The position numbers and the translations under genes were made by a program. From the IMG/VR virus record IMGVR_UViG_3300007511_001999, positions 1-64,000 of that record: a stretch of 64,000 nt of DNA, one strand, 5' to 3'. Below the pieces are notes generated by a model that saw only the letters and a list, made by a program, of their open reading frames with translations, was not told the origin of the DNA and did not search any database. The DNA is from a virus. Below are positions 31,151 to 57,698 of the stretch, one piece after another (the first letter of the stretch is position 1; each line of letters starts with the position of its first letter).

Positions 31151-31178
31151 GTAATTACTTAAAAAAGATGTTTTTTAA
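31151..31178. repeat. Two adjacent small palindromes between 2065-aa gene and gp25 gene
   Basis: Positions 31151-31158 read gtaattac, a perfect 8-base palindrome. Directly next to it, 31159-31178 is a perfect inverted repeat (ttaaaaaa, gatg loop, ttttttaa) that overlaps the stop codon of the upstream gene. On the transcript the second arm is a U-run. The stem is all A/T, so it would be a weak terminator at best; a processing site or chance are alternatives. Confidence 0.35.
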
Positions 31179-34100: not shown

Positions 34101-37100
34101 GTTCTCGTTAGCCAAACGCTGTTAGGCTTGTCCGTACCGTCTGTGTCGACATACTCCGGCGCAGACTGGCGCCCCATGGCCATGAAATTATTATAGAAAT
34201 TACGATTGAACACATAGGTTACGCTGGGTGGCATGCCGTTGCTGTCGTCCATAGATTTTTTTACTTCTTCAATCTTTACTACGCCTTCATCTAGAGCGTC
34301 TCTGGCCTCGGAGCCGGCAGCAAAAGATTCTTCCATAATTTGATTTATTATAGGAAGCATCGCTTGAAATGCGTCCATGGATCCCCCCAGCTTGTCCAAA
34401 TTGACGTCAGGGCAAATCTCAGGATCAATGCTATCGGCACCAAAATTAGAAATTTCCTCAAAAATATCAGACAATATTGAAAGGAATTTTGAATTTGGCG
34501 GCTCTGGCTCGACACAGTCGTCGCCGACTTTCCCATGAACACACAAATCCTTCAGGGCCGTATTGAGCGCGTGATTGCTACCCTTTCCGCCAGCGACGAT
34601 TTTGGGCTCCAACATCGCAGTTCTACTATTTTCTACCGAATATATAAACTGCATCTTTACATTGTCAGCCGTGCTATTAAACATAGAAGGGATAATGCGA
34701 TCTACAATTGGGTTAGCTAAGAACTGGGGATGTTCGGGGCACAGAAGATTAGGAAGTAGGGAGGCTGGGTCAATGGGTATGCCATTATTCAGCATGTCTG
34801 CTAGTTTTTTGATGCTTTCTTGATCGGCCAAAGGAGCAAAATCCGCTTCATTCAAACAATAGTTTTCTACTGCTGCTCTCACATCTACATCATTCACAAG
34901 ATCGTTGCAGATTGTCGTCATGTTAGCTAGTGGCGACAAAGTCGCAAAAAACGACAAAATCTGATTTCGGCTCTGCAATCTTTGTATGGAGGGCTCTGAC
35001 CAAGTTGTATTGAAAATAGCAATCTTTTCGACAGTTTCCTCCAGTACATCTGGCCGGGAGTTATAAAGACGACAAATTTCCATAGGAGTTAGTACTGCGC
35101 TGACGGCCGATAGGTAATCAAATCCATCTTCTTGATTCATTTGAAACTGGCCGAATGCATTATTAAGAAGAGGATCTACATCCACCTTAGGAAGACTTAA
35201 ATTATCTTTCATTGCTTGGGCAGCGTCGAGATTACCGAGAAGTTCCGGCCGGTCATGTAAATTATTGCAATTAAGCTTAATCATTTCGACAAGACCAAGG
35301 ACCAAATCCATGGCCAATTCCATCAAAATTTCTAAGAGCATATCGACAATTTGTTTCCACAACGGAGGGTCCCCGGTAATGGGATTGGGGAACTTTATCT
35401 CTGGGAATTCTGGTAATTTTATGAGGTCGTCTTTAATCTTTGGCACTTCGTAATCTTCTATCATGCCAGCGAGTTCGAGTGCCGAGTCCATTGCAGCTCG
35501 GATACGGTCCAGGGAGAAATTTGTGCCCATGGTCAAGCAAATGAGAGCCTCTGCAATTAACTCTGGAATGCCAAAGCGGCCTAAGACATCGTCCATAATT
35601 TCTAGAGTATTTTGAACCTGTTTGACTCCGCCGCCTTCTCGACCAGAGGTTCTATCTCGTGTTAAATCTGCCTCAGCCCGGTCGAAGGCGCGTTGAGCAT
35701 CTTCTATTACAAGGGGGTCACCATTTTGAATGGCAGCATTGAGCTCGCCTTCGAGGCGTTCTACAGCGCGCTCTAGTTCCTGGCGCTCCTCTATGGCTTC
35801 GCCGATCCCCTTAGCTTCGTTAATCATTGCTATGACATCATCAATAAGTTGTTTAAGAGGGAACTTGGCCGACAGAGCGTCGCCCGCTTGTTTCGCGAAT
35901 AAGGATGCTTGAACTTCTGGATCGTTTAGAGTGTCCTCCATCGCAGCGATGGCTCCAGGATTTAAAAAGTTGCTCATGGTGGCGGCCATGGCCATGGGAT
36001 TGAGAATATCTAGCGTTACTGAACTTTCGGCGGCCTGGAATACCGTATTAAACAACAAAGGATCCACGCCAGGTGGTGGGGGCGCTTGGAATTCTATCTC
36101 TACGCCATCGCCGCTCACTTCCCCCTTAATAGGCTGGTTTTCCATAACATCTTCAATTGTTGGCTTTGATAGAAGAGAGCCATAGGTATCTTTAATAAAA
36201 CCAAGAATTCCATTTAGGCCGCCCGGGCTGGTACGGAAGTCCGAAATTATTCTTTGATGATTTACCAATGTTTGCATCATCCAAGGGTCCTTGACACTCC
36301 GATTATGTTTAACAAGAGAAATAAAGCCAACCTTCAGGGGCGAGATCTCTAGAGAGCCGTCAGCTAGTTCCAGCTCATAAGACGCTCCGAGAATGTTTTG
36401 GTCGGGCCCCAGCTGGATACGAAGCAGATCATCCCGGGTCAGGAGGGTCGATCTCTTGCCCGACAGATTCAGATTTCGACGGACAGCATCCGTCAAAGTG
36501 GCCACCAATGTATGTATTTCCATATAGATTGTTTCTAAATCTAAAGGAATTTTAAGAGGGGCTGGGTATTGGAGAATTTGTTTATTGTACCCTCCGAGTG
36601 CCGCTTTTAATTCGCGCAAAGTTCGGGCTGATCCCCCAAGGCTGATTATTATCTCCTGGGCCGGGGCCCTGAGAGGTCGATCATAATACTGATTTATAAA
36701 AAATTCCTCAGCGTCGGCGAAGGGGGGCATACCAGAACTGAAGGTGACGACCGCTTGTTTTTGGCCCGGAAGCAAGCAGGGCTCGTCGCTCTTGACAACG
36801 GGTGTAGAGGCTGATTGGCGGGATGTGGCGGCCGGATCAAAAGTTCGAAGGCCTTCGCGAATTCGTTTAAAATTGACGGAGCCGGCTCTTGTATTATAAA
36901 GATACTTAGAGACCACTGGGGTCTCAATCTCTAAATCTGCAGGACCTTGATCTGTCTTTATAAAATCTAAATTGTCGGATATCTGTTTGCGAATAGTAGT
37001 GTAGCTATCCTTAACTCCTGGAGGGATCGGGTTTCGTTTGCGGACTACAGTACTCTGCGTACGGGATTTGCCGCGGCCTACGGCTTTCTTAGTCGACCTA

Positions 37101-37372
37101 GATTGAGCCTTTTTGGCTGGGCGAGTGGCGGCCGGCCTTCGCCTTACCGGCGGCCCGGAAATAAGAGGATAAAACTCTGGTAAATAGTACTCCATTAAGG
37201 CATCTATAGCCTTCTCTTTTAAAACCTTTGCATCTGCCTCTGCAACTACTCCTTTGGATATGTCCGGGTAAACGATTACTGCATAGGTACCCTTGTTTAC
37301 ATCAAACCAAGGAATAAAAGAAGGAAACTTCTTAAATACGTTTAGGCTGTTAAAGTCGATATCTGTCGTCAT
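31175..37372 (-). CDS. 2065-residue putative tail/baseplate protein with C-terminal hydrophobic segment
   Basis: A 2065-residue protein I cannot assign to a family. A strongly basic, Arg/Lys/Ser-rich patch lies near residues 75-112. A charged coiled-coil-like stretch (ERQELERAVERLEGELNAA) is near 535-555. A hydrophobic helical segment (LLEILMELAMDLVLGLVEMI) is near 690. Close to the C-terminus (about 2010-2040) is a membrane-type segment around 'PPFIFGIIYLLLNLL', followed by an acidic Ser-rich tail. It lies between the needle-like protein and the gp25-like gene, so a baseplate or tail-tube role is likely. A protein that reaches the host membrane on injection is one reading of the hydrophobic ends, but this is speculative. 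Confidence 0.55.
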   Translation of the reverse strand: MTTDIDFNSLNVFKKFPSFIPWFDVNKGTYAVIVYPDISKGVVAEADAKVLKEKAIDALMEYYLPEFYPLISGPPVRRRPAATRPAKKAQSRSTKKAVGRGKSRTQSTVVRKRNPIPPGVKDSYTTIRKQISDNLDFIKTDQGPADLEIETPVVSKYLYNTRAGSVNFKRIREGLRTFDPAATSRQSASTPVVKSDEPCLLPGQKQAVVTFSSGMPPFADAEEFFINQYYDRPLRAPAQEIIISLGGSARTLRELKAALGGYNKQILQYPAPLKIPLDLETIYMEIHTLVATLTDAVRRNLNLSGKRSTLLTRDDLLRIQLGPDQNILGASYELELADGSLEISPLKVGFISLVKHNRSVKDPWMMQTLVNHQRIISDFRTSPGGLNGILGFIKDTYGSLLSKPTIEDVMENQPIKGEVSGDGVEIEFQAPPPPGVDPLLFNTVFQAAESSVTLDILNPMAMAATMSNFLNPGAIAAMEDTLNDPEVQASLFAKQAGDALSAKFPLKQLIDDVIAMINEAKGIGEAIEERQELERAVERLEGELNAAIQNGDPLVIEDAQRAFDRAEADLTRDRTSGREGGGVKQVQNTLEIMDDVLGRFGIPELIAEALICLTMGTNFSLDRIRAAMDSALELAGMIEDYEVPKIKDDLIKLPEFPEIKFPNPITGDPPLWKQIVDMLLEILMELAMDLVLGLVEMIKLNCNNLHDRPELLGNLDAAQAMKDNLSLPKVDVDPLLNNAFGQFQMNQEDGFDYLSAVSAVLTPMEICRLYNSRPDVLEETVEKIAIFNTTWSEPSIQRLQSRNQILSFFATLSPLANMTTICNDLVNDVDVRAAVENYCLNEADFAPLADQESIKKLADMLNNGIPIDPASLLPNLLCPEHPQFLANPIVDRIIPSMFNSTADNVKMQFIYSVENSRTAMLEPKIVAGGKGSNHALNTALKDLCVHGKVGDDCVEPEPPNSKFLSILSDIFEEISNFGADSIDPEICPDVNLDKLGGSMDAFQAMLPIINQIMEESFAAGSEARDALDEGVVKIEEVKKSMDDSNGMPPSVTYVFNRNFYNNFMAMGRQSAPEYVDTDGTDKPNSVWLTRTESRGGQRAFSSHMKKDRSNSEYGRMRMQYRFLDKVKPRINPINLDFYSNEDIMSGRPPFRVRVPEGLVPGVEATWLEGTVEDDSFTPLYGGNSNTSPEGILGDFGSESGFNPYIFNFTYPLQTQLLNLADAPLGAADKRYLQDKLQKQVFPTVLNGMIERSVSQIEKQGIFTLSKLNSLNLFKDNSNCDPAQAGDLLDTRGILEQLKQEFGEAACNEEGDARDCAKNALKMGLIYLFIQVYVVEFLIKNVFVLSAFKFEEIFQKPLLREMFLTSMITQIEEKLGRGAGGIERFLRDQFEKMLVRDKAMAAGGIAHSYSPDTVVSLLKTGADVGKDGVPFKVLVQYLIEERLGFTHEVCGQMVDTMQSINNILSPAGARSTYEDDFIKEILGVYKAPYGLSSAPQKSNNGRVFFAKYAYWDGISNWSSLASSQIIVPWNPRDLTKAQNAWDQASTSAQTGLGHAVAGGPLGLYATQELYYEATYGGRPDGTLPRHTLTLQDILGSAGPGAMPVKTGTAIDFIDLVELTDGTLPEFEGLKIGYKLIFNFPQSNQHHQTLKKEQREWDAAATSMETATAWTFAIANPLIPPTGIYATPETWYEATHGPRPTTPQNDFIDSFPAGPVRDLMTKAIGLQARSTGPDSILDSAQADLDTITPGPQILGDLLTVNIKSLGDFNPNELNVSSQPGESADTIFQKIKRFDRVSPSSHIPRIKEDPEYSRFISQTFNPEIIMMIPVLYSFGLTNTFFDEIEKSFDTTKVEILGLLAMIDRTDQAPPVQGLVASDNLESGLASNGESDMNASAREFILKMLRETPIKILKGFCEMLDPHVAIWKLVRQITGDVFGYVIDIIDTGIDIAVNAQPDDSPLKPMLKTLEGEQLLALAFCGLNTMNAEATAELPDPPGPLEAPSLGPKMSVTGVDFTGTIVGLFCMPPFIFGIIYLLLNLLDEGDAGAASEGTESSQQNMADGQSSNVC

Positions 37373-45463: not shown

Positions 45464-46415
45464 TGTGTCGATTATCAACAATCTCCTGGTTATCTTTAAA
45501 CCACTGGATGGTGTCCACTATCCCCTCTTCAATGCTGACGGTTGGCTCGAAGCCATGTGACTTTGCACGAGTCATATCAAATACCCTCCGAGCATCTCCT
45601 GTGGGCTTCGTGGTATCCCAGCGTACCTCGATATCTCTTCCACAATGTTTGACTACTAGGTCGACAATGGTCTTAATTTGTACTCCGTCGCCAGAACCCA
45701 GATTAATAGGGTCCGTTACTCCGTTCTCCACCGCGTGTAGCATACCTAGTGCCACATCGCGGGAATGAATAAAGTCTCTGATCGGTGACCCATCACCCCA
45801 TACTTCAAGGTGGTCATTTTCTAGTGCCTTGCGAACCAACGATGGTACTACCATAGCATTTTCAGGGTCAAAGTTGTCGTATGGACCATACACATTTGCG
45901 GGTCGTACTATGGAAACACAGTCCCAACCGTACTGTATAGAATACGCCTGTGCCTGCAATTCTCCGATCCTCTTGGCCCAACCAGCAAAGCGGTCGTTGT
46001 CAGATGGAAAGGTACTCCACACATCATCTTCTCTAAAAACCTCAGCCGGGTGATACACCCCAACGCTGCTGGTATAGAGATACCACTTCACTCCCTGTGC
46101 TCTTGCCGCCTCCATCATATTGGTGTTAAACTGTAGCATTGGTACCATGAAGTCTGCCGGTTGTTCTCGGCACATCTTGGGTGAGCCCTTAACCCCAACA
46201 AGGTTAAAAACATAGTCCATCCCCTCGCATATCTCCAGGCACTTATCAAAGTATCGCAAGTCTGCCTTAACAAACTGTACGCTCTCTGGGAGTCCCTGTG
46301 GAGTGTCCAGCGAAACTACGTATACCTGGGCTCCTCTCTCCACTAGCAAATCTACTAGGGGGCGACCTATCATTCCAGTGCCCCCCGTTACTAATACCTT
46401 TTGTCCCTCAAACAT
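45447..46415 (-). CDS. NAD-dependent epimerase, GDP-fucose-synthase-like, catalytic Tyr absent
   Basis: A 322-residue extended SDR. The NAD motif is 'VLVTGGTGMIGRPLVDLL'. The substrate-binding segments 'PANVYGPYDNFDPENAMV' and 'WGDGSPIRDFIHSRDVA' resemble Fcl and related epimerases. In the active-site helix, 'FAGWAKRIGELQ', the Lys is kept but the residue four before it is Ala rather than Tyr. The serine strand 'YLYTSSVGVYHP' is normal. It may work as an epimerase with another acid/base, or in a complex with the neighbouring SDRs. It starts eight bases inside the 3-dehydrase gene. Confidence 0.7.
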   Translation of the reverse strand: MFEGQKVLVTGGTGMIGRPLVDLLVERGAQVYVVSLDTPQGLPESVQFVKADLRYFDKCLEICEGMDYVFNLVGVKGSPKMCREQPADFMVPMLQFNTNMMEAARAQGVKWYLYTSSVGVYHPAEVFREDDVWSTFPSDNDRFAGWAKRIGELQAQAYSIQYGWDCVSIVRPANVYGPYDNFDPENAMVVPSLVRKALENDHLEVWGDGSPIRDFIHSRDVALGMLHAVENGVTDPINLGSGDGVQIKTIVDLVVKHCGRDIEVRWDTTKPTGDARRVFDMTRAKSHGFEPTVSIEEGIVDTIQWFKDNQEIVDNRHNAFRK

Positions 46416-47589
46416 TGTTTATCCTTTCACACAAGTCAATTATCTGTTCTCTCGTTAAGTCAGTATGGTTTCCTACATACAAACTATAGTCATGGATGTG
46501 GTCTGCTGTGTCCAGACGACCCACAATCTCATACTCATATAATCCTTCTCTCAGATACGGTTGGCGGGCTTGGTTGCCCCCTCCTGCTGTTCCGATACGA
46601 TACTCTACGCCAACCTCCTCTAAGACCCCGGCGATGCGGCAGAGAAGCTCCTTGTCCGTCTCCTGCAAGATTAGGGGCAGCGCAAAGCTGCTGTTGCCCT
46701 CTAGTGCATAGTCGGTGAAGAAACGATTGGAGTCCAGGTGAGAAACCCAGCATTCCAAGTTTTCAACTCGGCGCGCTATATTTGAATCAAGTCGTTGTAA
46801 TTGTTCGAGTCCCAGAACCGCATTCATCTCCATGCTGCGCAAGTTATATCCAGGTACAGCAAATGTAAATAGAGGATTGAGGTCTGGGTAATTCTTCTTG
46901 TAGCGTTCTTGAAATGCTGGTGATGCTTCGCGGGTCATGCCGTGAGAACGGAAGAGGCGCGCATATTCATGAAGTTCCGGATTGTTTGTGCAAACAACGC
47001 CGCCCTCGATGGTGGTAATGTGGTGGCCAAAATAAAATGAGAAGTTGGACATATCACCAAAGGCGCCGATCTTCTCTCCGTTATAGGTGGCGCCATGGGA
47101 CTCACAGCAATCCTCAATCAAAAGAATATTATATCGATCAGCCAGTTCTCTCAATTCTTCTGACATAGCATTGAACCCCATCGCATGCACCAAGACAATA
47201 GCCTTGGTGTACGGAGTCACAGCCTCTTGAATATTTTCAAACGTCATTGAAAAATTACTTTTATCAACATCAACGAAAACAGGCGTCATTCCCAAATTAA
47301 CCACTGGGGCAATATCAGAAACCCAACCAATGGGGGGCACAATGACCTGGCCAACTCCTTTAAGTTCTTTAACAATTGACATCATAATATAGTTGGCAGA
47401 CGCTCCTGAATTTACAAAGGTGGTGTGGTTAACTCCGAGCCACTCGGACCACTTACTTTCAAACTCTTTCACTTTTGGGCCGTTCGTGAAACGCACATTG
47501 GGGGTTTTAATGAAATCAACCAAAGCCTGCTTATCAGATTCAGTAATATTGTCATTAATCAAAGGCCACGTAAATCTATTTGGTGCCAT
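46408..47589 (-). CDS. ColD-like PMP-dependent nucleotide-sugar 3-dehydrase
   Basis: A 393-residue member of the DegT/DnrJ/EryC1 aminotransferase family in which the PLP-lysine is replaced. The usual position reads 'FSFYFGHHITTIEGG', with His at 189-190 instead of Lys. This is the signature of sugar 3-dehydrases such as ColD (GDP-4-keto-6-deoxymannose 3-dehydrase, His188), which remove the C3 hydroxyl using PMP. No Fe-S cysteines are seen, again as in ColD. Other motifs are 'NSGASANYIMM' and 'LLIEDCCESHGATYNGE'. I chose the ATG at 47589, which has a GGAG ribosome-binding site; the frame opens earlier. With the GMD-like and Fcl-like genes around it, a colitose-type 3,6-dideoxy sugar is a reasonable guess. 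Confidence 0.8.
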   Translation of the reverse strand: MAPNRFTWPLINDNITESDKQALVDFIKTPNVRFTNGPKVKEFESKWSEWLGVNHTTFVNSGASANYIMMSIVKELKGVGQVIVPPIGWVSDIAPVVNLGMTPVFVDVDKSNFSMTFENIQEAVTPYTKAIVLVHAMGFNAMSEELRELADRYNILLIEDCCESHGATYNGEKIGAFGDMSNFSFYFGHHITTIEGGVVCTNNPELHEYARLFRSHGMTREASPAFQERYKKNYPDLNPLFTFAVPGYNLRSMEMNAVLGLEQLQRLDSNIARRVENLECWVSHLDSNRFFTDYALEGNSSFALPLILQETDKELLCRIAGVLEEVGVEYRIGTAGGGNQARQPYLREGLYEYEIVGRLDTADHIHDYSLYVGNHTDLTREQIIDLCERINNV

Positions 47590-48112
47590 AATACTCTCCG
47601 TATTCAACAATGAGGGTAGGACGTGCGTCCTCTCGTTCATAGGCCTTTTGAAAGGCTGGGAATATATCCTCGGGCTCCTTTAACTCAACCACATCAACAT
47701 AGGTTAACATCTTCCGGAATGCCTCGGTATGGTTCTGTGTGTGTTGAGGGCCCGCATCAATGGGCGTTTTTGCCCCAATGGCGACCCGAATGATGACACG
47801 GGGTCGCATATCACCGGCAGACATTACATTAATTTTGTCCAAATGGTTCACGAGTTGGTTGCAAGCAAGAATAAAGAAATCAAAGCGAGGATACATAGTA
47901 ATCGGAACGAGGCCCGCTAAGGCCATTCCTGTAGACATACCAAGCTGGGTTTCTTCAAAGACCGGAAGCTCTACACGCTTTTCCATCGGCACATTCACAA
48001 GTGTGCTAGAAATAGCATGGCCGCTCACGCGGCAAGCTTGACCCAAGAAAATGGTATCCTCCTGCTGTCCGAGCCAACTCATTGCCCGAATTAGTTCATC
48101 GCGATATTTCAT
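47576..48112 (-). CDS. ThDP enzyme beta subunit, E1-beta-like, truncated form
   Basis: A 178-residue protein (from ATG 48112) resembling the pyrimidine-binding domain of 2-oxoacid dehydrogenase E1-beta. It starts 'MKYRDELIRAMSWLG' and carries 'ELPVFEETQLGMSTGMALAG', which includes the Glu expected to activate ThDP. 'PITMYPRFDFFILACNQLVN' follows and is also typical. The usual C-terminal transketolase domain (about 130 residues) is missing. It follows the alpha-like gene after two bases. The frame could start at 48130, but 48112 fits family N-termini better. No E2 or E3 partner is nearby, so it likely makes a C2-type transfer to a sugar or amino-sugar rather than acting in central metabolism. 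Confidence 0.65.
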   Translation of the reverse strand: MKYRDELIRAMSWLGQQEDTIFLGQACRVSGHAISSTLVNVPMEKRVELPVFEETQLGMSTGMALAGLVPITMYPRFDFFILACNQLVNHLDKINVMSAGDMRPRVIIRVAIGAKTPIDAGPQHTQNHTEAFRKMLTYVDVVELKEPEDIFPAFQKAYEREDARPTLIVEYGEYYGTK

Positions 48113-48114
48113 AA

Positions 48115-48747
48115 CTAAAAGTTCACCCATTTTCCAGTTCCATGATGAGGGTATTCCATTTCGTATGCATAATAAATAACATCATCTGGGATGGGCTGTT
48201 TGGTACCCCAAGCCTCGTCTGTAGGCGTATGGACACTCATATTGTTATCTTCGATTACCCACTGCAAAGGAAGGTTGAAGTTCTTAGCATACTTGTGACT
48301 CTCATGAAAGACTCCGCACTCCGATGTCATATCGCCGACAAAGCACCATACGCGATTAGGAGAGTGGAGCTTCTTTAGGGCGGCTGCAGCCCCGAGTGCC
48401 ATTGGAATAATTCCTCCTACAATTGAGGATGCATAAAAATTAGGATTGACGTTATTGGTCCCCATACTGTTGCCTTTAATGATGTTGGTAAATAGTTTTT
48501 CCGCGGGCACTCCATGGAGCAGTGCATGATAGTGGTTGCGCCATGGCACAAAGACCCAATCTTTTTCGCTTATATATTGAAATATCTCAATTAGCTGTTC
48601 CTCGTTGTTCTTCGCTAGGTGGATAGGGCCGGCCACCTCGCCGGCCTCATACTTGTCTCGCACACGCGACTCAAAATCTATCAGTTCAGCAGCAGTATAC
48701 AGAGGCTCTCGAACCTTCTCTAAGTGTGGTGGTATCTTTAGTGTCAT
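48115..48747 (-). CDS. ThDP enzyme alpha subunit, E1-alpha-like, short form
   Basis: A 210-residue E1-alpha/transketolase N-domain-like protein. The ThDP-binding stretch is 'FVGDMTSECGVFHESHKYAK' followed about 10 residues later by 'IEDNN' (the GDx...NN pattern; the third residue is Met rather than Gly). Upstream come 'GPIHLAKNNEEQL', 'PWRNHYHALLHGV' and 'IVGGIIPMALGAAAALKK', all in the order seen in E1-alpha. Normal E1-alpha has over 320 residues, so this is compact. Together with the beta-like gene it should form a heterotetrameric ThDP enzyme. Substrate is unknown; a decarboxylating transfer in sugar synthesis is inferred from the neighbours. Confidence 0.7.
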   Translation of the reverse strand: MTLKIPPHLEKVREPLYTAAELIDFESRVRDKYEAGEVAGPIHLAKNNEEQLIEIFQYISEKDWVFVPWRNHYHALLHGVPAEKLFTNIIKGNSMGTNNVNPNFYASSIVGGIIPMALGAAAALKKLHSPNRVWCFVGDMTSECGVFHESHKYAKNFNLPLQWVIEDNNMSVHTPTDEAWGTKQPIPDDVIYYAYEMEYPHHGTGKWVNF

Positions 48748-49223
48748 TATTTATCTCTCGTTTGTAAAATGGGATTCTCTATTGGCCAATTAATGCCCCA
48801 AGACGGATCGTTCCACTTAATTGTAAACTGATCTTGGACATCGGGATAGGTGCCAGGGTATAACCACTTATAGTGAAATACTGCTTCATCGCTTAAAACT
48901 AAAAAGCCATTACCCACCCCAGGCGGCAATAGAACTTGTTTGCGACTTCTAGAATCCAGTATCATCGAATCCCATTGTTTAGTGGTTGAAGAGTCGGTGC
49001 GTGGGTCCGCTACTACAAAATATAGCTCTCCATACAAGCAGGTCACTAGCTTCCAAGACTTTTGGTCCCCGTGGATCCCACGAAGAACATGGCGACGGGA
49101 AGTTGAAACCTTATCATGATTAAAGTTGAATCTATGTGAATCAGCGTTCCAGAGAGTCCAAAGGTCTCCCCTATAATCTGTATATACATCCGGTTGTGTC
49201 ACCTCTACGCCGTCAATCTTCAT
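48747..49223 (-). CDS. RmlC-like dTDP-sugar 3,5-epimerase (cupin)
   Basis: A 158-residue protein of the dTDP-4-dehydrorhamnose 3,5-epimerase family. The diagnostic 'RHVLRGIHGDQKSWKLVTC' holds the catalytic His, and 'LYGELYFVVADPR' and 'LLPPGVGNGFLVLSDEAVF' follow as in RmlC. It is slightly shorter than RmlC (about 180 residues), with the C-terminus trimmed. Single-epimerisation relatives (3- or 5-epimerases) cannot be excluded. A start/stop overlap (TAATG) couples it to the E1-alpha-like gene. The RmlB-like dehydratase at 51123-52073 would supply its 4-keto substrate. Confidence 0.75.
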   Translation of the reverse strand: MKIDGVEVTQPDVYTDYRGDLWTLWNADSHRFNFNHDKVSTSRRHVLRGIHGDQKSWKLVTCLYGELYFVVADPRTDSSTTKQWDSMILDSRSRKQVLLPPGVGNGFLVLSDEAVFHYKWLYPGTYPDVQDQFTIKWNDPSWGINWPIENPILQTRDK

Positions 49224-49632
49224 TGTTGCTCCAGCTAATCTCCCAATCTTGGAACTCGGCCGCCAAACAATCTATTTTGTAATCCTTTCGGCCGCCGGCA
49301 AGTTCCTGAATCTTGTTCTTTGCAGTATTGCGTATTCCATTGAGGCCGTGGGTCAACTCTAAATTGTTACCATCTCTAATCCCTTTTCGGTAGTTCGATT
49401 CATTGTGCCAGATATGTAAATTCATCTGCGATAACACAACAATTGCACGGAGGACCTCGGCATTTATCTCTTCGGCTTCTGCTAAGCAAACATCAATATC
49501 ATGACAGATATCTTTAATCTCTTGTGCGTATTCCTCTTTGTGATCTGTAATGAAGACTTCCTTTAATTGAGTGATGGACAAGCGGTCGACCAGCTCAGCT
49601 AAAGTGGGGAGGTATTTTCGTTCACTTGTCAT
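49213..49632 (-). CDS. Small helical protein, DUF4254-like, linked to glycosyltransferases
   Basis: A 139-residue mostly helical protein. The N-terminus 'PTLAELVDRLSITQLKEVF' resembles a motif I associate with DUF4254-type proteins found beside glycosyltransferases; this assignment is from memory and only moderately certain. The middle has 'LSQMNLHIWHNESNYRKGI', and the C-terminus is polar with several Trp. No enzyme motif is visible. It overlaps the GT10-like gene by 11 bases and the RmlC-like gene by 11 bases. A scaffolding or accessory role for glycan transfer is an inference. Confidence 0.45.
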   Translation of the reverse strand: MTSERKYLPTLAELVDRLSITQLKEVFITDHKEEYAQEIKDICHDIDVCLAEAEEINAEVLRAIVVLSQMNLHIWHNESNYRKGIRDGNNLELTHGLNGIRNTAKNKIQELAGGRKDYKIDCLAAEFQDWEISWSNNED

Positions 49633-51122: not shown

Positions 51123-52073
51123 TTACCACCTAAAGTTATTTTTACAGTCTTCTACGATCTTGACTACTTCTTCATCAAAATTTTTCTTTGGTTCCCACCC
51201 TAGAGCACGAAGTTTAGAGTCATCTAAAGCATAGCGCACGTCCTGGCCCTGGCGCACAACTGAAAAATCGATATACTGTTCCCAATTCTCATCTGTTCCA
51301 TGAAAAGCTTTTACAATCTGCTTAACGGTTTCGCGGTTGCTTTGTTCAAATCCGCCGGCAACGTTATAAATTTCATCAACGGAGCCTGCCTGGACGATCG
51401 TTGTCACAGCCGCGGCAGTGTCCTCCGCATGAAGCCAGTTTCTGACGGGTGTCCCCTGGTTATGGAGGCGAATCAGACTGTTCCGCATCAGGTTTTTGAC
51501 TGCAATTGGAATTAGTTTTTCTGGATATTGTCCTATCCCGTAATTATTTGTCGGCCGCAGGATGATATAGTTGATTCCGTAGGTCCGGGCCCACGCATGA
51601 ACAAGCATATCTGCCGAAGCTTTTGCCGCAGAGTATGGATTGCTGGGCTTTAGAAGATCTGTTTCGGTGTGCTGCCCGTCTGTGATGTCTCCGTAGACTT
51701 CATCTGTGCTCACATGAAAGAAAATGGGGCGATTATTGCAGTTTAGTGGCTTATGGCGCACCAAATCAAGAAGGTTTTTAACCCCCACAATGTTGCTGTT
51801 AATAAATTCGTCGCTATTAATGATACTGTTACCCACATGTGACTCTGCCGCGAAGTTAATGATATAGTCACAATCATAAAGATGTGTTAAATTACAGATG
51901 TCTTCTCGTAAAAACTTAAAATTATCATAAGTTTCAAACTCTTTCAGCAAAGATTCGTTGGCGACATAAGTACACTTGTCTACGCCATAAACTTTCCAGC
52001 CTAATTCTAGGCATTTTCGCGTAGCATAGGAGCCTATAAAGCCCAAACATCCTGTAATGTAAACGATTTTCAT
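51123..52073 (-). CDS. dTDP-glucose 4,6-dehydratase-like (RmlB family)
   Basis: A 316-residue extended SDR of the RmlB family, which oxidises and dehydrates dTDP- or CDP-glucose to the 4-keto-6-deoxy sugar. Clear motifs: 'VYITGCLGFIGSYATRKCL', 'INFAAESHVGNSI', the catalytic Thr-Asp-Glu in 'VSTDEVYGDI' and 'PYSAAKASADMLVHAW' (YxxxK). 'RPTNNYGIGQYPEKLIP' is a typical substrate segment. It overlaps the following 3-dehydrase gene by four bases (ATGA). It is the likely 4-keto sugar source for both the RmlC-like enzyme and the E1-like dehydrase, though the nucleotide (dTDP or CDP) is not determined here. Confidence 0.8.
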   Translation of the reverse strand: MKIVYITGCLGFIGSYATRKCLELGWKVYGVDKCTYVANESLLKEFETYDNFKFLREDICNLTHLYDCDYIINFAAESHVGNSIINSDEFINSNIVGVKNLLDLVRHKPLNCNNRPIFFHVSTDEVYGDITDGQHTETDLLKPSNPYSAAKASADMLVHAWARTYGINYIILRPTNNYGIGQYPEKLIPIAVKNLMRNSLIRLHNQGTPVRNWLHAEDTAAAVTTIVQAGSVDEIYNVAGGFEQSNRETVKQIVKAFHGTDENWEQYIDFSVVRQGQDVRYALDDSKLRALGWEPKKNFDEEVVKIVEDCKNNFRW

Positions 52074-53410
52074 TGATATTTCTCCATAAACCGATTCACA
52101 GAACCCTCAATATAGTCTAATTTCTCATCCGTAATACCCGCAAAAGTGCCCAAAAAGAACGAATTAGTGGTGATTTTATAAGCTACTGGGAACGATTCTT
52201 TAAGATTATCATACTTTGCTCCTATTTTTGAATATCCTGGGTGGAACAGTATGTTGCCGGCGAAGTAGCTGCGAGTCTGTATCTTATCCCCTTCTAGGTG
52301 TCGGACGATGTCCTCGCGAGTGAAGGGTGCATCCTCCCTGAGTGTTAATAAAAAGGCAAACCAACACGGATCCGACTTGGGGGTGGGCTCTGGGAGATGG
52401 CAGTATTTGGCATAAGGCTCGAAAATCTCATGCAAACGTGCAAAGTTTTTACGGCGCGCTCCGTCCATCATCGGAAGCTTCTTAAGTTGCTGCAACCCCA
52501 TAGCTGCTTGTAATTCTAAAGGCTTGATATTATAGCCAATTTCCTCGAAAACATAGCGATGATCTGCGATGATCTCTCTGGCACCCGGAAGCCAATTTTT
52601 GAATCTATTGCCACAAGCTGTCCCGCTTAAGACGCACCCGGGCTTAACAGAGTTGCAATAGCAGGCGCGGCCCCAATCACGGAAGCTACTGATAATTTTT
52701 TCTAGTCGAGCGGAGTTCATCGCGACGAAGCCGCCTTCGCCCATAGTCATATGATGAGCAGGGTAAAATGAACAGGTTGAGATATCCCCAAAAGAGCCGA
52801 GCTTCTTGCCGTCATATGTCGAGCCCAAAGCATCGCAAGCGTCTTCTAAGAAAAGTAAGTCATATTTCTCTACTAGGGCCATTACGCGGTCCATGTCGGG
52901 AGGGTTCCCGAGTACATGCGCGAACATCAATGCGCGGATCTCTTTATTAGTATCGGCAGCTAGCAGTGCCTCGACCTGATCAAGATCCAGGTTTAAATCT
53001 GGAAGCGTGACATCGACGAAAACCGGCTCGAATCCATTCTGGATGATCGGATTAAGCGTTGTGGGGAAACATACAACGGGGGTAATGATTTTGGACCCCT
53101 CCGGGAGCTGCTTCCACCTTTGAGATTTAAGCGCCGAAACCATAAGCAGGTTTGCAGAGCTACCTGAGTTTGTCAGGACTCCATGAGTCTTTCCCAAGTG
53201 CGTAGGAAACTCGACTTCAAATTGACGGCCCTTTTTGCCTAGTACGAGCCATCGACTAAGCAGGCTTTCCACAGCAGCAACGTATTCGTCACTATTGTAT
53301 ACGTTGCCTGAGTAGGCGATCCAATCCTCACCAGGAGTCCACTGCTCAGCGGATTCACACTCTTTAATATATTCGTCTACCAATGATAAAATGGTTTCTA
53401 ATTTAGACAT
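52070..53410 (-). CDS. rfbH: RfbH/E1-type nucleotide-sugar 3-dehydrase (PMP, putative Fe-S)
   Basis: A 446-residue DegT-family protein matching RfbH (E1, CDP-4-keto-6-deoxy-D-glucose 3-dehydrase), which deoxygenates C3 with PMP and electrons from a reductase. The PLP-lysine position reads 'FYPAHHMTMGEGG', with His at 219-220, exactly where E1 has His220. Four cysteines follow the E1 layout: one in 'LEDACDALGSTYDGK', then 'CYC', a longer loop and Cys before GNRF. In E1 they bind a [2Fe-2S] cluster; here the final loop is longer. I use ATG 53410; GTG 53419 is possible. No E3 reductase and no CDP-glucose pathway genes lie in the window, so partners would have to come from elsewhere. Confidence 0.82.
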   Translation of the reverse strand: MSKLETILSLVDEYIKECESAEQWTPGEDWIAYSGNVYNSDEYVAAVESLLSRWLVLGKKGRQFEVEFPTHLGKTHGVLTNSGSSANLLMVSALKSQRWKQLPEGSKIITPVVCFPTTLNPIIQNGFEPVFVDVTLPDLNLDLDQVEALLAADTNKEIRALMFAHVLGNPPDMDRVMALVEKYDLLFLEDACDALGSTYDGKKLGSFGDISTCSFYPAHHMTMGEGGFVAMNSARLEKIISSFRDWGRACYCNSVKPGCVLSGTACGNRFKNWLPGAREIIADHRYVFEEIGYNIKPLELQAAMGLQQLKKLPMMDGARRKNFARLHEIFEPYAKYCHLPEPTPKSDPCWFAFLLTLREDAPFTREDIVRHLEGDKIQTRSYFAGNILFHPGYSKIGAKYDNLKESFPVAYKITTNSFFLGTFAGITDEKLDYIEGSVNRFMEKYQ

Positions 53411-54227
53411 TCTCTTCACTTTCCACTACTTGCCGAATTCCGGCGTCGAGGCCAATCAAATCAAGGCCTAAGCCTTCCAAACGATCGCTAGCACCAGTAT
53501 AAGTGTACGCATATCCTGGTTTTTCTACTATAACACCTGTTGGAGCTTTTGTCAAATTATTTAATATCGATGCAACTGCCGTGAGACTGGTTTTTTCTGC
53601 GTAGCACATGTTGTAATCAACGTATTGGGTTTGTTTTTTTGTCATGAGAAACTCCACAACCTTGATAAGATCTTTAACATAAAAGAAATCCATCTTTCGA
53701 TCTTGAGTAATAAAAACCGGGAGATTGTCTCGCTGGCGCGCTAAAGAGTTCTTGATGAATCTCGTACTATTCTCCATTGTACCAAAACAACCGAATAAAC
53801 GCAAGTTAATAATATTTTTATTATATAAGATAATCTCGCGAGCAATTAAATTTTTGGCTAAGCCATAATAGTCAGTGGGAATACACCCATAAATAGCTTC
53901 TTCATGGGCCAACTCAACATTGGAATATCTATCGAATTCTGCTCCGGATCCGAAGGAGAACATCCACTTATATTTATCAGCGTGGGCCTTAAGATTGTGA
54001 AACATGCTTAAGTTAGCTCGGAGGGACGCGAAACTATTATCTCCTTTAACGGCGGCATGTAAAACAATATCAAATTTACGACCAGCAAAAAATGCGCTGA
54101 CATCCTCAGCATTTGTGAGGTCTAGTACTTGCCGGGGGGCAGCTGTTATATTATGAGATGTCTTAGAAAAATGGCTTTCGAATTCTTTTCCTAAAAAGCC
54201 ATTTGCTCCGGTTATTAAGATATTCAT
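53403..54227 (-). CDS. SDR family nucleotide-sugar reductase
   Basis: A 274-residue SDR starting 'NILITGANGFLGKEFESHF' with the catalytic pair in 'PTDYYGLAKNLIAREI' (YxxxK) and the strand 'WMFSFGSGAEFD'. Length and layout fit 4-keto-sugar reductases of the RmlD/WcaG type. It lies between the RfbH-like gene and panB. In yersiniose synthesis a reductase (YerF) acts on the product of RfbH and YerE, so this gene is a candidate for that step, but the assignment is by context only. Confidence 0.7.
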   Translation of the reverse strand: MNILITGANGFLGKEFESHFSKTSHNITAAPRQVLDLTNAEDVSAFFAGRKFDIVLHAAVKGDNSFASLRANLSMFHNLKAHADKYKWMFSFGSGAEFDRYSNVELAHEEAIYGCIPTDYYGLAKNLIAREIILYNKNIINLRLFGCFGTMENSTRFIKNSLARQRDNLPVFITQDRKMDFFYVKDLIKVVEFLMTKKQTQYVDYNMCYAEKTSLTAVASILNNLTKAPTGVIVEKPGYAYTYTGASDRLEGLGLDLIGLDAGIRQVVESEENV

Positions 54228-54238
54228 TTAACACTAGA

Positions 54239-55174
54239 TCATTCAACCCATTTTGTAGACTTTTTAAGTTCAACAAGCTGCTCATCCTTAATCGAATAAG
54301 AATAGGCAGCACCAGGGAAGGCGCCCGTATGCACATCAACAACATATTGTTCAATTGCCATCTTAGCTAAAACAAGAAGGCCGTCGCCGCGTTCTTTGCG
54401 ACCAAGCTGTCGAAGGTCTCCCGCGGCCGAGAGATAGTCAGTAAATTTGCCAACAACCTCAGGAATATAACACTTGGCAAACCACGGCCTAAAGGACTGA
54501 TAAAATCCCATTAAATCATGCATGATAACAAGCTGGCCGTCAACTCCGGCGCCGGCTCCGATTCCATAAATGGGAATTTCAAGTTGCGCAGCGATTTGGG
54601 CTGCAGGCTCGGCCGGCATAGCCTCTAGCAAGATTGCAAAGGCTCCTGCTTCCTGAAGTGCCAACGCATCCTCAAGGGTGGCTTCGAAGCTTTTAATTGT
54701 TTTACCCTGAACACGATAGCCGCCGAAAGAAGTGGTGCTCTGAGGGGTGAGGCCGAGATGACCCACTACTGGAATTCCTGCGTCGACGATGGCGCGGACT
54801 CGCGACGCAACGCGGAGGCCACCTTCGAGCTTAATTGCATCTGATGCGCATTCCTTAACGAATCGCAGCGCGTTTCGCACTGCCTCTTCGTCGCTGACCT
54901 CATAAGACCCTTGGGGCATATCCCCTACGATAAAGGTGTTGGGGGCGCCCCGTCGAGCGGACGAGGCCATGAACACCATTTCATCCATTGTGACCGGGTT
55001 AGTGGTGTCATATCCTAGTTGAACCATTCCGCCGGAGTCACCTACAAGAATCATGTCGACTCCCGCTTCTTCGGTGACCTGAGCAAATGGTAGATCATAG
55101 GCGGTGATCCAAGTGAGTGGTGTACCATTTTTCTTCATGGATACAAAATCTAGTATTGTTTTCTTTGTTGCCAT
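54239..55174 (-). CDS. panB: 3-methyl-2-oxobutanoate hydroxymethyltransferase-like (PanB)
   Basis: A 311-residue protein with the complete PanB pattern. PanB adds a hydroxymethyl group from methylene-tetrahydrofolate to a 2-oxo acid (ketoisovalerate to ketopantoate). Seen in order: 'GDSGGMVQLGYDTTNPVTM' (metal-binding Asp), 'FIVGDMPQGSYEVS' (second Asp), 'AIKLEGG' (Lys, Glu), 'AILLEAMPAEPAAQIA' (catalytic Glu) and 'IGAGAGVDGQLVIMHDLMG'. All key residues appear intact. A strong AAGGAGG precedes the ATG (complement of 55179-55185). It sits between the acetolactate-synthase-like gene and a sugar reductase. No panC, panD or ilv genes are near, which argues against pantothenate synthesis. It may build a branched or hydroxymethylated acid used in glycan decoration; this is inference. 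Confidence 0.85.
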   Translation of the reverse strand: MATKKTILDFVSMKKNGTPLTWITAYDLPFAQVTEEAGVDMILVGDSGGMVQLGYDTTNPVTMDEMVFMASSARRGAPNTFIVGDMPQGSYEVSDEEAVRNALRFVKECASDAIKLEGGLRVASRVRAIVDAGIPVVGHLGLTPQSTTSFGGYRVQGKTIKSFEATLEDALALQEAGAFAILLEAMPAEPAAQIAAQLEIPIYGIGAGAGVDGQLVIMHDLMGFYQSFRPWFAKCYIPEVVGKFTDYLSAAGDLRQLGRKERGDGLLVLAKMAIEQYVVDVHTGAFPGAAYSYSIKDEQLVELKKSTKWVE

Positions 55175-56961
55175 TATTCCTCCTTAAGTGGCGTGACTAT
55201 CATATTCTCAAAAAATTCTTCTCTGTCCAGAAAAGGAAACATATCTTCCAGGGGTCTAGAAATGAGTCTTCCGTCTGGGAGCTTCTTTGAGCCAATAGTT
55301 GGCAAGACCGCGTCCCACTTTTTACACATCACCTCACAGATCACCGGACCTTTGTATTCTAACACCCTTTTAACGCTTCTTTTAAGGCCTTTAAGCTTCG
55401 AAGTTCTAAAATACTTGATGCCATAAGCATTTGCTATTTTTTGAAAATTGGGAAATGACACTCCGGAGTCTTCGTCTGTGCCGATAAACCTATCCTCAAA
55501 AAATTTTCTTTGTGTTGTGCGAATAGAAAGATAGCCATTGTTATTCCAAACAAAGATCTTCACTGGAAGTTGATTATGGACGATCGTTTGCAGTTCCTGT
55601 ATATTACTCTGAAATGAGCCGTCGCCGGTGATTCCTATTACATCTTTCTTACCGCGGGCAATACAGGCGCCAATACTTGCCGGGAGAGTAAAGCCCATGT
55701 CGGCCTGTCCCCCTGATGTAATATAGCGCTGCTGGTCTGTCACCTGAAGCGCCTGCGATGTTACATAAAAGGCGGAGCCGGCGTCTGACACCACCACATC
55801 ATCGGGGCGCATCGAGTCGGACAGCACCTTCATAAAAGCATAAAGACTAATTCCGTCTTCATCGCTTTCAAAGTGCTCCGGAAGAGAGACTGGCCATTTT
55901 GTTTTCCAGGCCAAGCATTTCTGAGCCCACGGGGTGGGGGCCGGAGGAAAGCCGGCCTTGAGCAAAAACTCTTTGGCATCTGCTACAATCAGGTGATCCA
56001 CCCGAACCGTGTTTTTCTGGTGTTCAAACTTGTCGATGTCAACAACAATAAGCTTGGCTTCCCGACCAAATAACTCGTATCGATAACCAGTGACTGGAAC
56101 CCCCAATCGCGTGCCTATAGCCAAAATTACATCGGCATTTTGCATAGCAAAGTTGGCAGCTCGGTTTCCTTTAATCCCTACTCGGCCAATGTTGAGGGGA
56201 TCATCAGAGGATAAAAGATCTGCAGCTAAATATGTGTTAACCACCGGGATGTTATGGAGATGTACGAACTTTGAAAAAATGTCCTTTGCGCCGGAGAGGC
56301 GGATTCCGTTCCCAGCGAGGATTACTGGGCGCTCGGCTTGTGCAAGATATCGACTAACAGCCGCAAGATCTTCTACCTCAGGAATATAAGACTCCTTTTC
56401 AGGCACAAAGCGCGGTAATTCGGACGGTTCAATCAGAGCGGCCTGGACATCCATAGGAATATCGAGCCACACCGGGCCGGGCCTTCCGCTGAAAGCTAGG
56501 TGGATTGCTTTATCAATATGAAAAGCGATCATTTCAGGGTCATTAACCAAGACTGCATATTTCGTCAACGACTGAACAATAGCAATAATATTAGCTTCTT
56601 GAACCCCAAGCTGGCGCAAGGGCAAATCAATATTGCCCGTAGCCTGTTCTTTGTTAACTTGTCCGGAAATAAAAAACGTAGGAAGGTTGTCCTGCCAGGC
56701 TTCCAAGAGCCCCGTGATAGTATTAGTGCTTCCACAGCCCGTAGTGGGCATCACAACGCCCATTTTGCCACTGTATTTGCCGTATCCAACAGCTGCCATA
56801 GCAGAAGCCTGTTCGTGGTGACTACAAACGGCTTGAAGTTTGGGATTTTTAGCTACGCCATCGTTTAGGAACATGGCACCCCCACCTGTTAAGGTGAAAA
56901 CGTGTTCAACTCCCAGCTCAACAATACGCTGTGCCACATAATCTGTAACCCGCGTTGGCAC
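55174..56961 (-). CDS. Acetolactate-synthase-like ThDP enzyme (candidate YerE-type)
   Basis: A 595-residue ThDP-dependent enzyme of the acetohydroxyacid synthase family. The activating Glu is residue 50 in 'VCSHHEQASAMAAVGYG'. The ThDP motif 'GITGDGSFQSNIQELQ' lies near residue 445, with 'VWNNNGYLSIRTTQ' after it. Relatives decarboxylate pyruvate or a similar oxo acid and transfer the C2 unit. YerE does this to a CDP-3,6-dideoxy-4-ketosugar in yersiniose A synthesis. The RfbH-like dehydrase, a reductase and PanB are encoded immediately downstream in one co-transcribed block, which favours a sugar-branching role over branched-chain amino acid synthesis. The start is GTG and overlaps the preceding stop by one base (TAGTG). 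A plain host-type acetolactate synthase is the alternative; no small regulatory subunit is present. Confidence 0.78.
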   Translation of the reverse strand: MPTRVTDYVAQRIVELGVEHVFTLTGGGAMFLNDGVAKNPKLQAVCSHHEQASAMAAVGYGKYSGKMGVVMPTTGCGSTNTITGLLEAWQDNLPTFFISGQVNKEQATGNIDLPLRQLGVQEANIIAIVQSLTKYAVLVNDPEMIAFHIDKAIHLAFSGRPGPVWLDIPMDVQAALIEPSELPRFVPEKESYIPEVEDLAAVSRYLAQAERPVILAGNGIRLSGAKDIFSKFVHLHNIPVVNTYLAADLLSSDDPLNIGRVGIKGNRAANFAMQNADVILAIGTRLGVPVTGYRYELFGREAKLIVVDIDKFEHQKNTVRVDHLIVADAKEFLLKAGFPPAPTPWAQKCLAWKTKWPVSLPEHFESDEDGISLYAFMKVLSDSMRPDDVVVSDAGSAFYVTSQALQVTDQQRYITSGGQADMGFTLPASIGACIARGKKDVIGITGDGSFQSNIQELQTIVHNQLPVKIFVWNNNGYLSIRTTQRKFFEDRFIGTDEDSGVSFPNFQKIANAYGIKYFRTSKLKGLKRSVKRVLEYKGPVICEVMCKKWDAVLPTIGSKKLPDGRLISRPLEDMFPFLDREEFFENMIVTPLKEE

Positions 56962-57698
56962 TACTTATCCCCATACCATTTAACACGCCAATAGCCACGG
57001 ATTGTATCATCATAATTGGTTGTTTCTCTGTGCATTCCCCAGGTGGCTTGCCCCGGGTGCCATCGGTAGTTATATCCGAGGTATCTATCCGCCGGGAAAA
57101 TGAATACATTGTTGTCTGCGAGCCGAAAATATAAATGATAATCTGCAGCGCCCAAATATTGTGGATCCCATCGCAAAAGGCCGCGGTCCTTTAGTTTGCG
57201 ACTATACACCATAGTAGGGGTATTCACGGGGCTGTGGTGAAACAATTGTTCTTTGAACTCTGTGAGGCTCTTATAGTTGTGAGCAACCTCTCCCCGAAAG
57301 TCTTCCTCAAGGCCCTGGACTCCGCGAATAGGGCTTTGGAATGCTAATATCTTCGAGGGAGCTTTTGATATGTATTGCATGAAATTTTCTACATACTCTG
57401 GTGTTATATAATCGTCGGCTCCTAAAATAGTAATGTAATCGCCGGTGCTGAGACTAAGTCCTTCTGTAACCGGCTCTTCCCAGGAATACCGATATAGGTT
57501 GGGGGCTGTCGACACAATAAGCGCGGGGTGCGTCTCTTGTACCTTCTTAACAATTTCTAAACTACGATCTGTACTTTCGTTATCTACCAAAATTACTTCG
57601 GTATTTTCATAGGTTTGATTGAGAGCGGATGTGACACACTTCTCAATCCACTTTTCGGCATTGTAACAGGGGATAATAATTGTGACTTTTAAACTCAT
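56961..57698 (-). CDS. GT2-family glycosyltransferase (GT-A)
   Basis: A 245-residue GT2 enzyme. Canonical features: N-terminal 'VTIIIPCYNAEKWIEKCV', 'EVILVDNESTDRSLEIV' and the metal-binding 'ITILGADDYITPEYVENF'. The acceptor domain includes 'DPQYLGAADYHLYFRLAD'. No membrane segment is present, so it is soluble. The acceptor and sugar donor cannot be named. It is the last of four tandem glycosyltransferase genes in transcription order and overlaps the one before it by four bases (ATGA). Confidence 0.8.
   Translation of the reverse strand: MSLKVTIIIPCYNAEKWIEKCVTSALNQTYENTEVILVDNESTDRSLEIVKKVQETHPALIVSTAPNLYRYSWEEPVTEGLSLSTGDYITILGADDYITPEYVENFMQYISKAPSKILAFQSPIRGVQGLEEDFRGEVAHNYKSLTEFKEQLFHHSPVNTPTMVYSRKLKDRGLLRWDPQYLGAADYHLYFRLADNNVFIFPADRYLGYNYRWHPGQATWGMHRETTNYDDTIRGYWRVKWYGDK

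Follow-up and report, generated by a model that had tools for sequence, protein, structure and literature searches.

A gene block in a large tailed phage probably encodes a pathway for a C4-branched 3,6-dideoxy sugar, in which a PanB enzyme supplies a hydroxymethylated 2-oxo acid, and a ThDP-dependent enzyme decarboxylates this acid and adds it to C4 of the sugar. The comparative evidence that the pathway would be a phage variant of the YerE/ErwE kind is strong, and includes the gene set itself, the families to which the encoded enzymes belong, their intact catalytic residues, the pairing of PanB with the ThDP gene across viruses, and the presence of aldolases in the PanB slot of cellular relatives.

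Genomic context and deoxysugar genes

The window analysed here is a stretch of 64,000 nucleotides (64 kb) that forms part of the IMG/VR record IMGVR_UViG_3300007511_001999 (65,463 bases). The genes it carries are those of a large tailed phage, among them a PhoH-like protein, a baseplate wedge protein, an endolysin and a late sigma factor, and the structural part of the phage includes ORFs of 4,732 aa (13185-27383) and 2,065 aa (31175-37372). Flanked by structural genes and PhoH, a block of sugar-nucleotide and glycosyltransferase genes runs along the minus strand (Table 1). The ThDP, PanB, SDR and RfbH ORFs, called as four adjacent genes in a first-pass annotation made from the DNA letters, are indeed intact and follow one another with almost no gaps. 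The same four genes are found in identical order, at 76-97% protein identity, on a relative contig of 193,778 bases, and the set recurs in dozens of contigs, so that its composition is not a matter of chance; most of the viral contigs compared are fragments.

Table 1. Genes of the proposed branched-sugar block, with positions in the window
Feature	Position	Strand	Details
RmlB-like 4,6-dehydratase	51123..52073	-	316 aa; TIGR01181 sub-cut-off, motifs TDE and YxxxK
RfbH-type 3-dehydrase	52070..53419	-	449 aa; NCBIfam RfbH, alignment to E1
SDR (RmlD/epimerase-like)	53403..54227	-	274 aa; Pfam Epimerase and RmlD_sub_bind
PanB, viral clade type A, proposed 4-hydroxy-2-oxo acid donor maker	54239..55174	-	311 aa
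YerE/ErwE-like ThDP carboligase	55174..56961	-	595 aa
Family 2 glycosyltransferase, first gene upstream of ThDP	56961..57698	-	Pfam Glycos_transf_2

The RfbH ORF scores 470.9 against the RfbH equivalog model (cut-off 423), and its best solved relative is E1. Histidine in place of the PLP-lysine, as first annotated, is present: residue 222 aligns with E1 His220, and His is found in 48/48 viral homologues. The accompanying claim of Fe-S-type cysteines holds with a qualification: C253, C255 and C269 match E1 cysteines in the alignment and recur in 41 of the 48 viral homologues, while a fourth, C262, lies close to the remaining E1 cysteine but is unconserved, with Asp there in the contig L002. The RmlB-like enzyme, a homologue of which is present in most viral ThDP-PanB loci, likely makes the 4-keto-6-deoxy sugar. 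The presence of this gene might point to dTDP rather than CDP as the nucleotide, but its score of 296.8 bits against the dTDP equivalog TIGR01181 is under the cut-off of 365.1. An SDR homologue comes after PanB in most viral loci, a position in which it may reduce the ketone of the side chain, and a glycosyltransferase homologue precedes the ThDP gene in the syntenic viral loci, where this family 2 enzyme could transfer the finished sugar. A search next to viral ThDP genes found no RfbF-like gene, and a nucleotidylyltransferase occurs in one of 17 viral contigs. As for an E3-type reductase partner of RfbH, a Fer2 (2Fe-2S ferredoxin-type) domain was found in one of 17 related phage contigs (possibly incomplete) and is absent from the nearest relative. 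NDP-glucose and the reductant for RfbH are therefore presumably supplied by the host.

Two further features lie near this block. At 46408-48747, a second His-bearing dehydrase of the DegT family, which is ColD-like, with His206 and without Fe-S cysteines, has as neighbors an RmlC-like gene and a ThDP enzyme in two subunits (E1_dh, 210 aa; Transket_pyr, 184 aa), a pair with counterparts in L049 and L055-L057. Since sugars are also branched by two-subunit ThDP enzymes (PMC12247030), this region may be a second branched-sugar module. A 139-aa protein without Pfam match (49213-49632) keeps 72-81% identity across viral loci that are distant in other respects (L012, L049, L053, L055), a conservation far above that of the neighboring genes.

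Identity of the ThDP enzyme

The Glu50 and GDGS...NN motifs initially read from the 595-residue ThDP enzyme were found, and Glu50 and GDG...NN are invariant across our alignments. The enzyme scores under every acetolactate synthase (AHAS) cut-off listed, with 362.6 bits where the best model requires 738 and 359.1 where another requires 538. Its closest solved structure is JanthE of Janthinobacterium sp. HH01 (PDB 8rph; 437 bits, 36% identity), the best AHAS scoring 269, and the structure prediction proposed as a check by the first-pass annotation (pLDDT 92) gave the same order in Foldseek, with JanthE at TM 0.94 and ahead of AHAS (E 6e-61 vs 1e-47). JanthE differs in its cofactor motif, which is CDG where the phage enzyme has the usual GDG. 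In a 40-row tree, the phage enzyme groups with JanthE and with cellular enzymes that neighbor RfbF/RfbH, and the AHAS group is separate (support 100/99); a position among host ilvB enzymes, which had been named as grounds for abandoning the sugar pathway, is not what this tree gives. By sequence and fold, then, the ThDP enzyme is nearer to the YerE-like carboligases, for which JanthE stands here, than to AHAS, and an IlvB/AHAS identity was rejected on both the family scores and the separate clade. In one viral clade (L008, L010, L053, L055, L056), the YerE-like ThDP gene is divided between two ORFs, of ~340 and ~250 aa.

Features of the phage PanB

The phage PanB scores over both PanB model cut-offs, and the top matches of its predicted structure (mean pLDDT 90) are PanB crystal structures, with TM to target 0.92 for E. 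coli PanB (1m3u). D46, D85, K115, E117, H139 and E184, which we take to be the catalytic and metal-binding residues, align with E. coli D45, D84, K112, E114, H136 and E181 and are invariant in 90/90 sequences (89 distinct viral PanBs and that of the window), so that fold and all catalytic residues are common to the phage and E. coli proteins. PEP mutase or another superfamily member was considered and rejected (Pfam PEP_mutase 19.9 bits, sub-cut-off; PanB structures as the top Foldseek matches), and no PHROGs family was found for the protein. The differences from E. coli and other cellular PanBs are a divergent C-terminal part, a genomic context without a pantothenate gene, membership of a separate viral clade (one clade vs 46 genome-derived PanBs and two solved structures; SH-aLRT 96), and changes at three positions (E. 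coli numbers): I212 is replaced by Leu and V214 by Ile in 89 of the 90 sequences, and F87 by Tyr or Gln in 86 of them, whereas cellular PanBs mostly have V/I at 212, V at 214 and F at 87. E. coli PanB converts several 2-oxo acids and formaldehyde to 4-hydroxy-2-oxo acids (PMC7611260; see also PMC10127515), and variants at I202 and I212 alter the range of acids used (PMC7611260), which suggests that the viral changes at 87, 212 and 214 may have altered the choice of 2-oxo acid.

These residues also bear on whether the enzyme could simply carry out the normal PanB reaction, with ketopantoate made from ketoisovalerate serving as the donor (or its hydroxymethyl ending on the sugar) and a dimethyl-branched chain as the outcome. 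Ketopantoate is itself a 4-hydroxy-2-oxo acid, and the catalytic residues for making it are all kept, but almost all viral sequences depart from cellular PanB at positions 212, 214 and 87, the first of which affects the use of 2-oxo acids by the E. coli enzyme (PMC7611260), and the fully substituted carbon by the carbonyl would make for a hindered donor; we consider this outcome quite unlikely. Highly improbable, in our view, is a boost to the host, in which acetolactate from the ThDP enzyme and ketopantoate from PanB would raise valine, pantothenate and CoA. The valine-pantothenate route does include homologues of both enzymes, and a virome study in which pantoate transferase was the most abundant vitamin-related viral gene read it as serving pantothenate synthesis (PMC8940887); however, the ThDP enzyme stands apart from AHAS in tree and scores, neither PanC nor KARI was found in 18 related phage contigs (possibly fragments), and the neighboring genes are sugar genes. 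A literature search for PanB with O-antigen or phage returned one virome paper only, which reads PanB as vitamin metabolism.

Pairing of PanB and ThDP genes in viruses

We scanned 2.9 million viral contigs (IMG/VR) with three PanB queries, i.e. type A, to which the PanB of the window belongs, type B and cellular PanB, in scans that overlap in contigs and return only sequences sharing a pattern with the query. A YerE-like gene lies within 0.5 kb of PanB in 80/80 loci found with the type B seed, in 74 of the 75 loci found with the cellular seed, and in 10 of the 12 loci found with the type A seed (12/12 within 4 kb); in the sole exception of the cellular-seed scan, L325, PanB is 257 bases from the contig end. 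Together with ThDP-seeded loci, the scans yielded 89 distinct viral PanBs, which fall into 58, 41 and 11 clusters at 95%, 90% and 70% identity, respectively. Pairing with the ThDP gene is thus the rule for the viral PanBs found in these scans, and a one-off insertion of PanB was rejected on this recurrence and on the residues invariant in all 90 sequences. Matches to PanB in INPHARED were set aside as evidence for the module: in Microcystis phage MaAM05 (L144 9001-9861), PanB adjoins panC and a suf operon, in what looks like bacterial sequence in a phage record, and most of the other matches are in unannotated records.

The PanB label needs at least 5 changes on well-supported branches of the ThDP tree, so that PanB has either joined several ThDP lineages or been lost repeatedly. 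Among contigs syntenic with the window, type A PanB is found in L001 and L002, as in the window itself, and type B in L014, L017, L018 and L022, and the swap between the two types (44-47% local identity) looks as if one gene had been replaced in place by the other. Homologues of RfbH/ColD are recurrent partners of the ThDP gene, and, with JanthE as the closest structure and AHAS split off, they bear out the original proposal of a branched-chain deoxy-sugar pathway from RfbH and a YerE-like enzyme. PanB and ThDP genes also occur without an RfbH homologue in the flanks (L003, L009, L012), and the acceptor sugar can accordingly differ. Other genes may occupy the PanB slot: in L053, MhpF and the first part of DmpG (4-hydroxy-2-oxovalerate aldolase) stand where PanB is found in the related L008 and L010, and L059 and L050 have an aminotransferase where L003 and L012 have PanB. 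The ThDP gene is found without PanB or aldolase in L037, L039, L041, L042 and L055. In the first four of these, DJ-1/PfpI-like and cupin-like proteins are encoded upstream of the ThDP gene, and a different supply of donor is possible there.

Aldolases in the PanB slot of cellular relatives

From a scan of 84,980 species genomes, the best 80 relatives of the ThDP enzyme were taken, of which 79 could be analysed. A link between cellular PanB and the ThDP enzyme was rejected, as PanB is present in 0/79 of the fetched flanks although a PanB match exists somewhere in 17 of 28 genomes of these relatives. Within five genes of the ThDP gene, 39 of the 79 cellular loci have an aldolase of the 4-hydroxy-2-oxo-acid type, which can be a 4-hydroxy-2-oxovalerate aldolase-like HMGL (17 loci), HpcH/HpaI-type, or a true DmpG with its partner dehydrogenase MhpF. 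Such aldolases take up 43 of 412 positions at most three genes from the cellular ThDP gene vs 0 of 507 positions five or more genes off. Four of eight further gammaproteobacterial loci, selected by ThDP score alone, have HpcH or DmpG-MhpF (one on the opposite strand), and these aldolase-bearing loci include the sister group of JanthE. Cellular members of the window's own ThDP clade adjoin DmpG-MhpF (L068, L069) or a class I aminotransferase (L064-L067). In 20 of the 79 loci, the search for donor-type families near the ThDP gene gave no match, which, together with the viral loci that have neither PanB nor aldolase, indicates that the ThDP family may also draw on 2-oxo acids that are already available. 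A class I aminotransferase stands beside the ThDP gene, in place of PanB or aldolase, in L071, L075, L088, L050 and L059 as well as in L064-L067; that it turns an amino acid, e.g. homoserine, into the 2-oxo acid donor is speculation on our part.

Comparison with known systems

YerE-like ThDP enzymes are likewise used for erwiniose in Pectobacterium atrosepticum (ErwE) and for caryophyllose in Mycobacterium marinum (MMAR_2332), systems that we compare by their published description; no description of the gene neighborhood of ErwE or MMAR_2332 was found in our literature search. Both enzymes are reported to prefer 4-hydroxy-2-oxo acid donors, ErwE not using pyruvate, and the acceptor of ErwE is CDP-4-keto-3,6-dideoxyglucose, i.e. 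the RfbH product (PMC12247030). The side chain of caryophyllose is 1,3,4,5-tetrahydroxyhexyl (PMC5706390) and shows the 1,3-pattern that results from a donor of the 4-hydroxy-2-oxo acid type. In contrast to these systems, the phage locus has PanB in the position of donor supply and an RmlB-like gene instead of RfbF/RfbG genes, and is part of a phage genome. As PanB occupies the slot of cellular 4-hydroxy-2-oxo acid aldolases, the comparison points to a donor of the ErwE/caryophyllose type and a longer hydroxylated branch, and because PanB chemistry makes 4-hydroxy-2-oxo acids, its product would be a donor of the type required by an ErwE-like enzyme. From its gene neighborhood, we infer that the phage ThDP enzyme probably uses such a donor, and the pathway may by analogy work like the ErwE type as published.

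The first-pass annotation had drawn its analogy with yersiniose A of Yersinia pseudotuberculosis, and its expectation of a branched sugar stands. The phage locus shares with the yersiniose pathway an RfbH-type dehydrase, a YerE-like carboligase and an SDR-type gene, and differs from it in the adjacent PanB, which has not been described for that pathway. Less well supported, now that the PanB slot has proved to be that of cellular aldolases, are that annotation's pyruvate donor, two-carbon branch and additional group contributed by PanB, whose role we refine to what is probably supply of the donor rather than further decoration of the sugar. A yersiniose-type outcome, with a two-carbon branch added from pyruvate and PanB acting separately (as a cofactor-supply accessory or in an unrelated modification), would be in line with the preference of YerE itself for pyruvate (PMC12247030), the presence of RfbH in the phage locus, and the viral loci L037, L039 and L042, in which ThDP gene and RfbH occur without PanB. 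We nonetheless think it unlikely: in the phages it is the ThDP gene, not RfbH, with which PanB is associated, since the two stay together in the loci that lack RfbH, and relatives have aldolases or MhpF-DmpG in the PanB slot.

Proposed pathway

The pathway with PanB as donor supplier, for which substrates, products, nucleotide, reaction order, reductase role and biological use are all proposals drawn from the comparisons above, would run in five steps. The RmlB-like enzyme would convert host NDP-glucose to NDP-4-keto-6-deoxyhexose, from which RfbH would remove the 3-OH to give the 3,6-dideoxy-4-ketose. PanB would transfer the hydroxymethyl of methylene-THF to a small 2-oxo acid, yielding a 4-hydroxy-2-oxo acid (4-hydroxy-2-oxobutanoate from pyruvate), which the YerE/ErwE-like ThDP enzyme would decarboxylate, adding the hydroxyacyl anion to the C4 ketone. 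The SDR may then reduce the new side-chain ketone, and the glycosyltransferase would place the sugar; with pyruvate as the PanB substrate, the predicted branch is 4-C-(1,3-dihydroxypropyl). Evenly balanced, in our judgment, is the more specific proposition that viral PanB forms a functionally distinct clade dedicated to C-branching of sugars, hydroxymethylating pyruvate or another small 2-oxo acid for a YerE/ErwE-like carboligase and leading to a new type of sugar, e.g. 4-C-(1,3-dihydroxypropyl)-3,6-dideoxyhexose.

Discussion

Branched sugars made by YerE-like enzymes are already known from bacterial surface glycans, and we found little on the origin of the hydroxylated donor acids. The phage PanB, set in the slot where cells use aldolases, amounts to a natural experiment, by which the choice of donor may be predictable from the neighboring genes. 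The present findings give grounds for a second look at viral 'pantoate transferase' genes taken to raise host vitamin B5 and CoA, and, should viral PanB prove to be such a clade dedicated to C-branching, the assignment of viral 'panB' as an auxiliary gene for vitamin B5 would largely be mistaken. In a family of large bacterial viruses, an enzyme of vitamin B5 synthesis has apparently been redirected to provide a building block for the side chain of a sugar.
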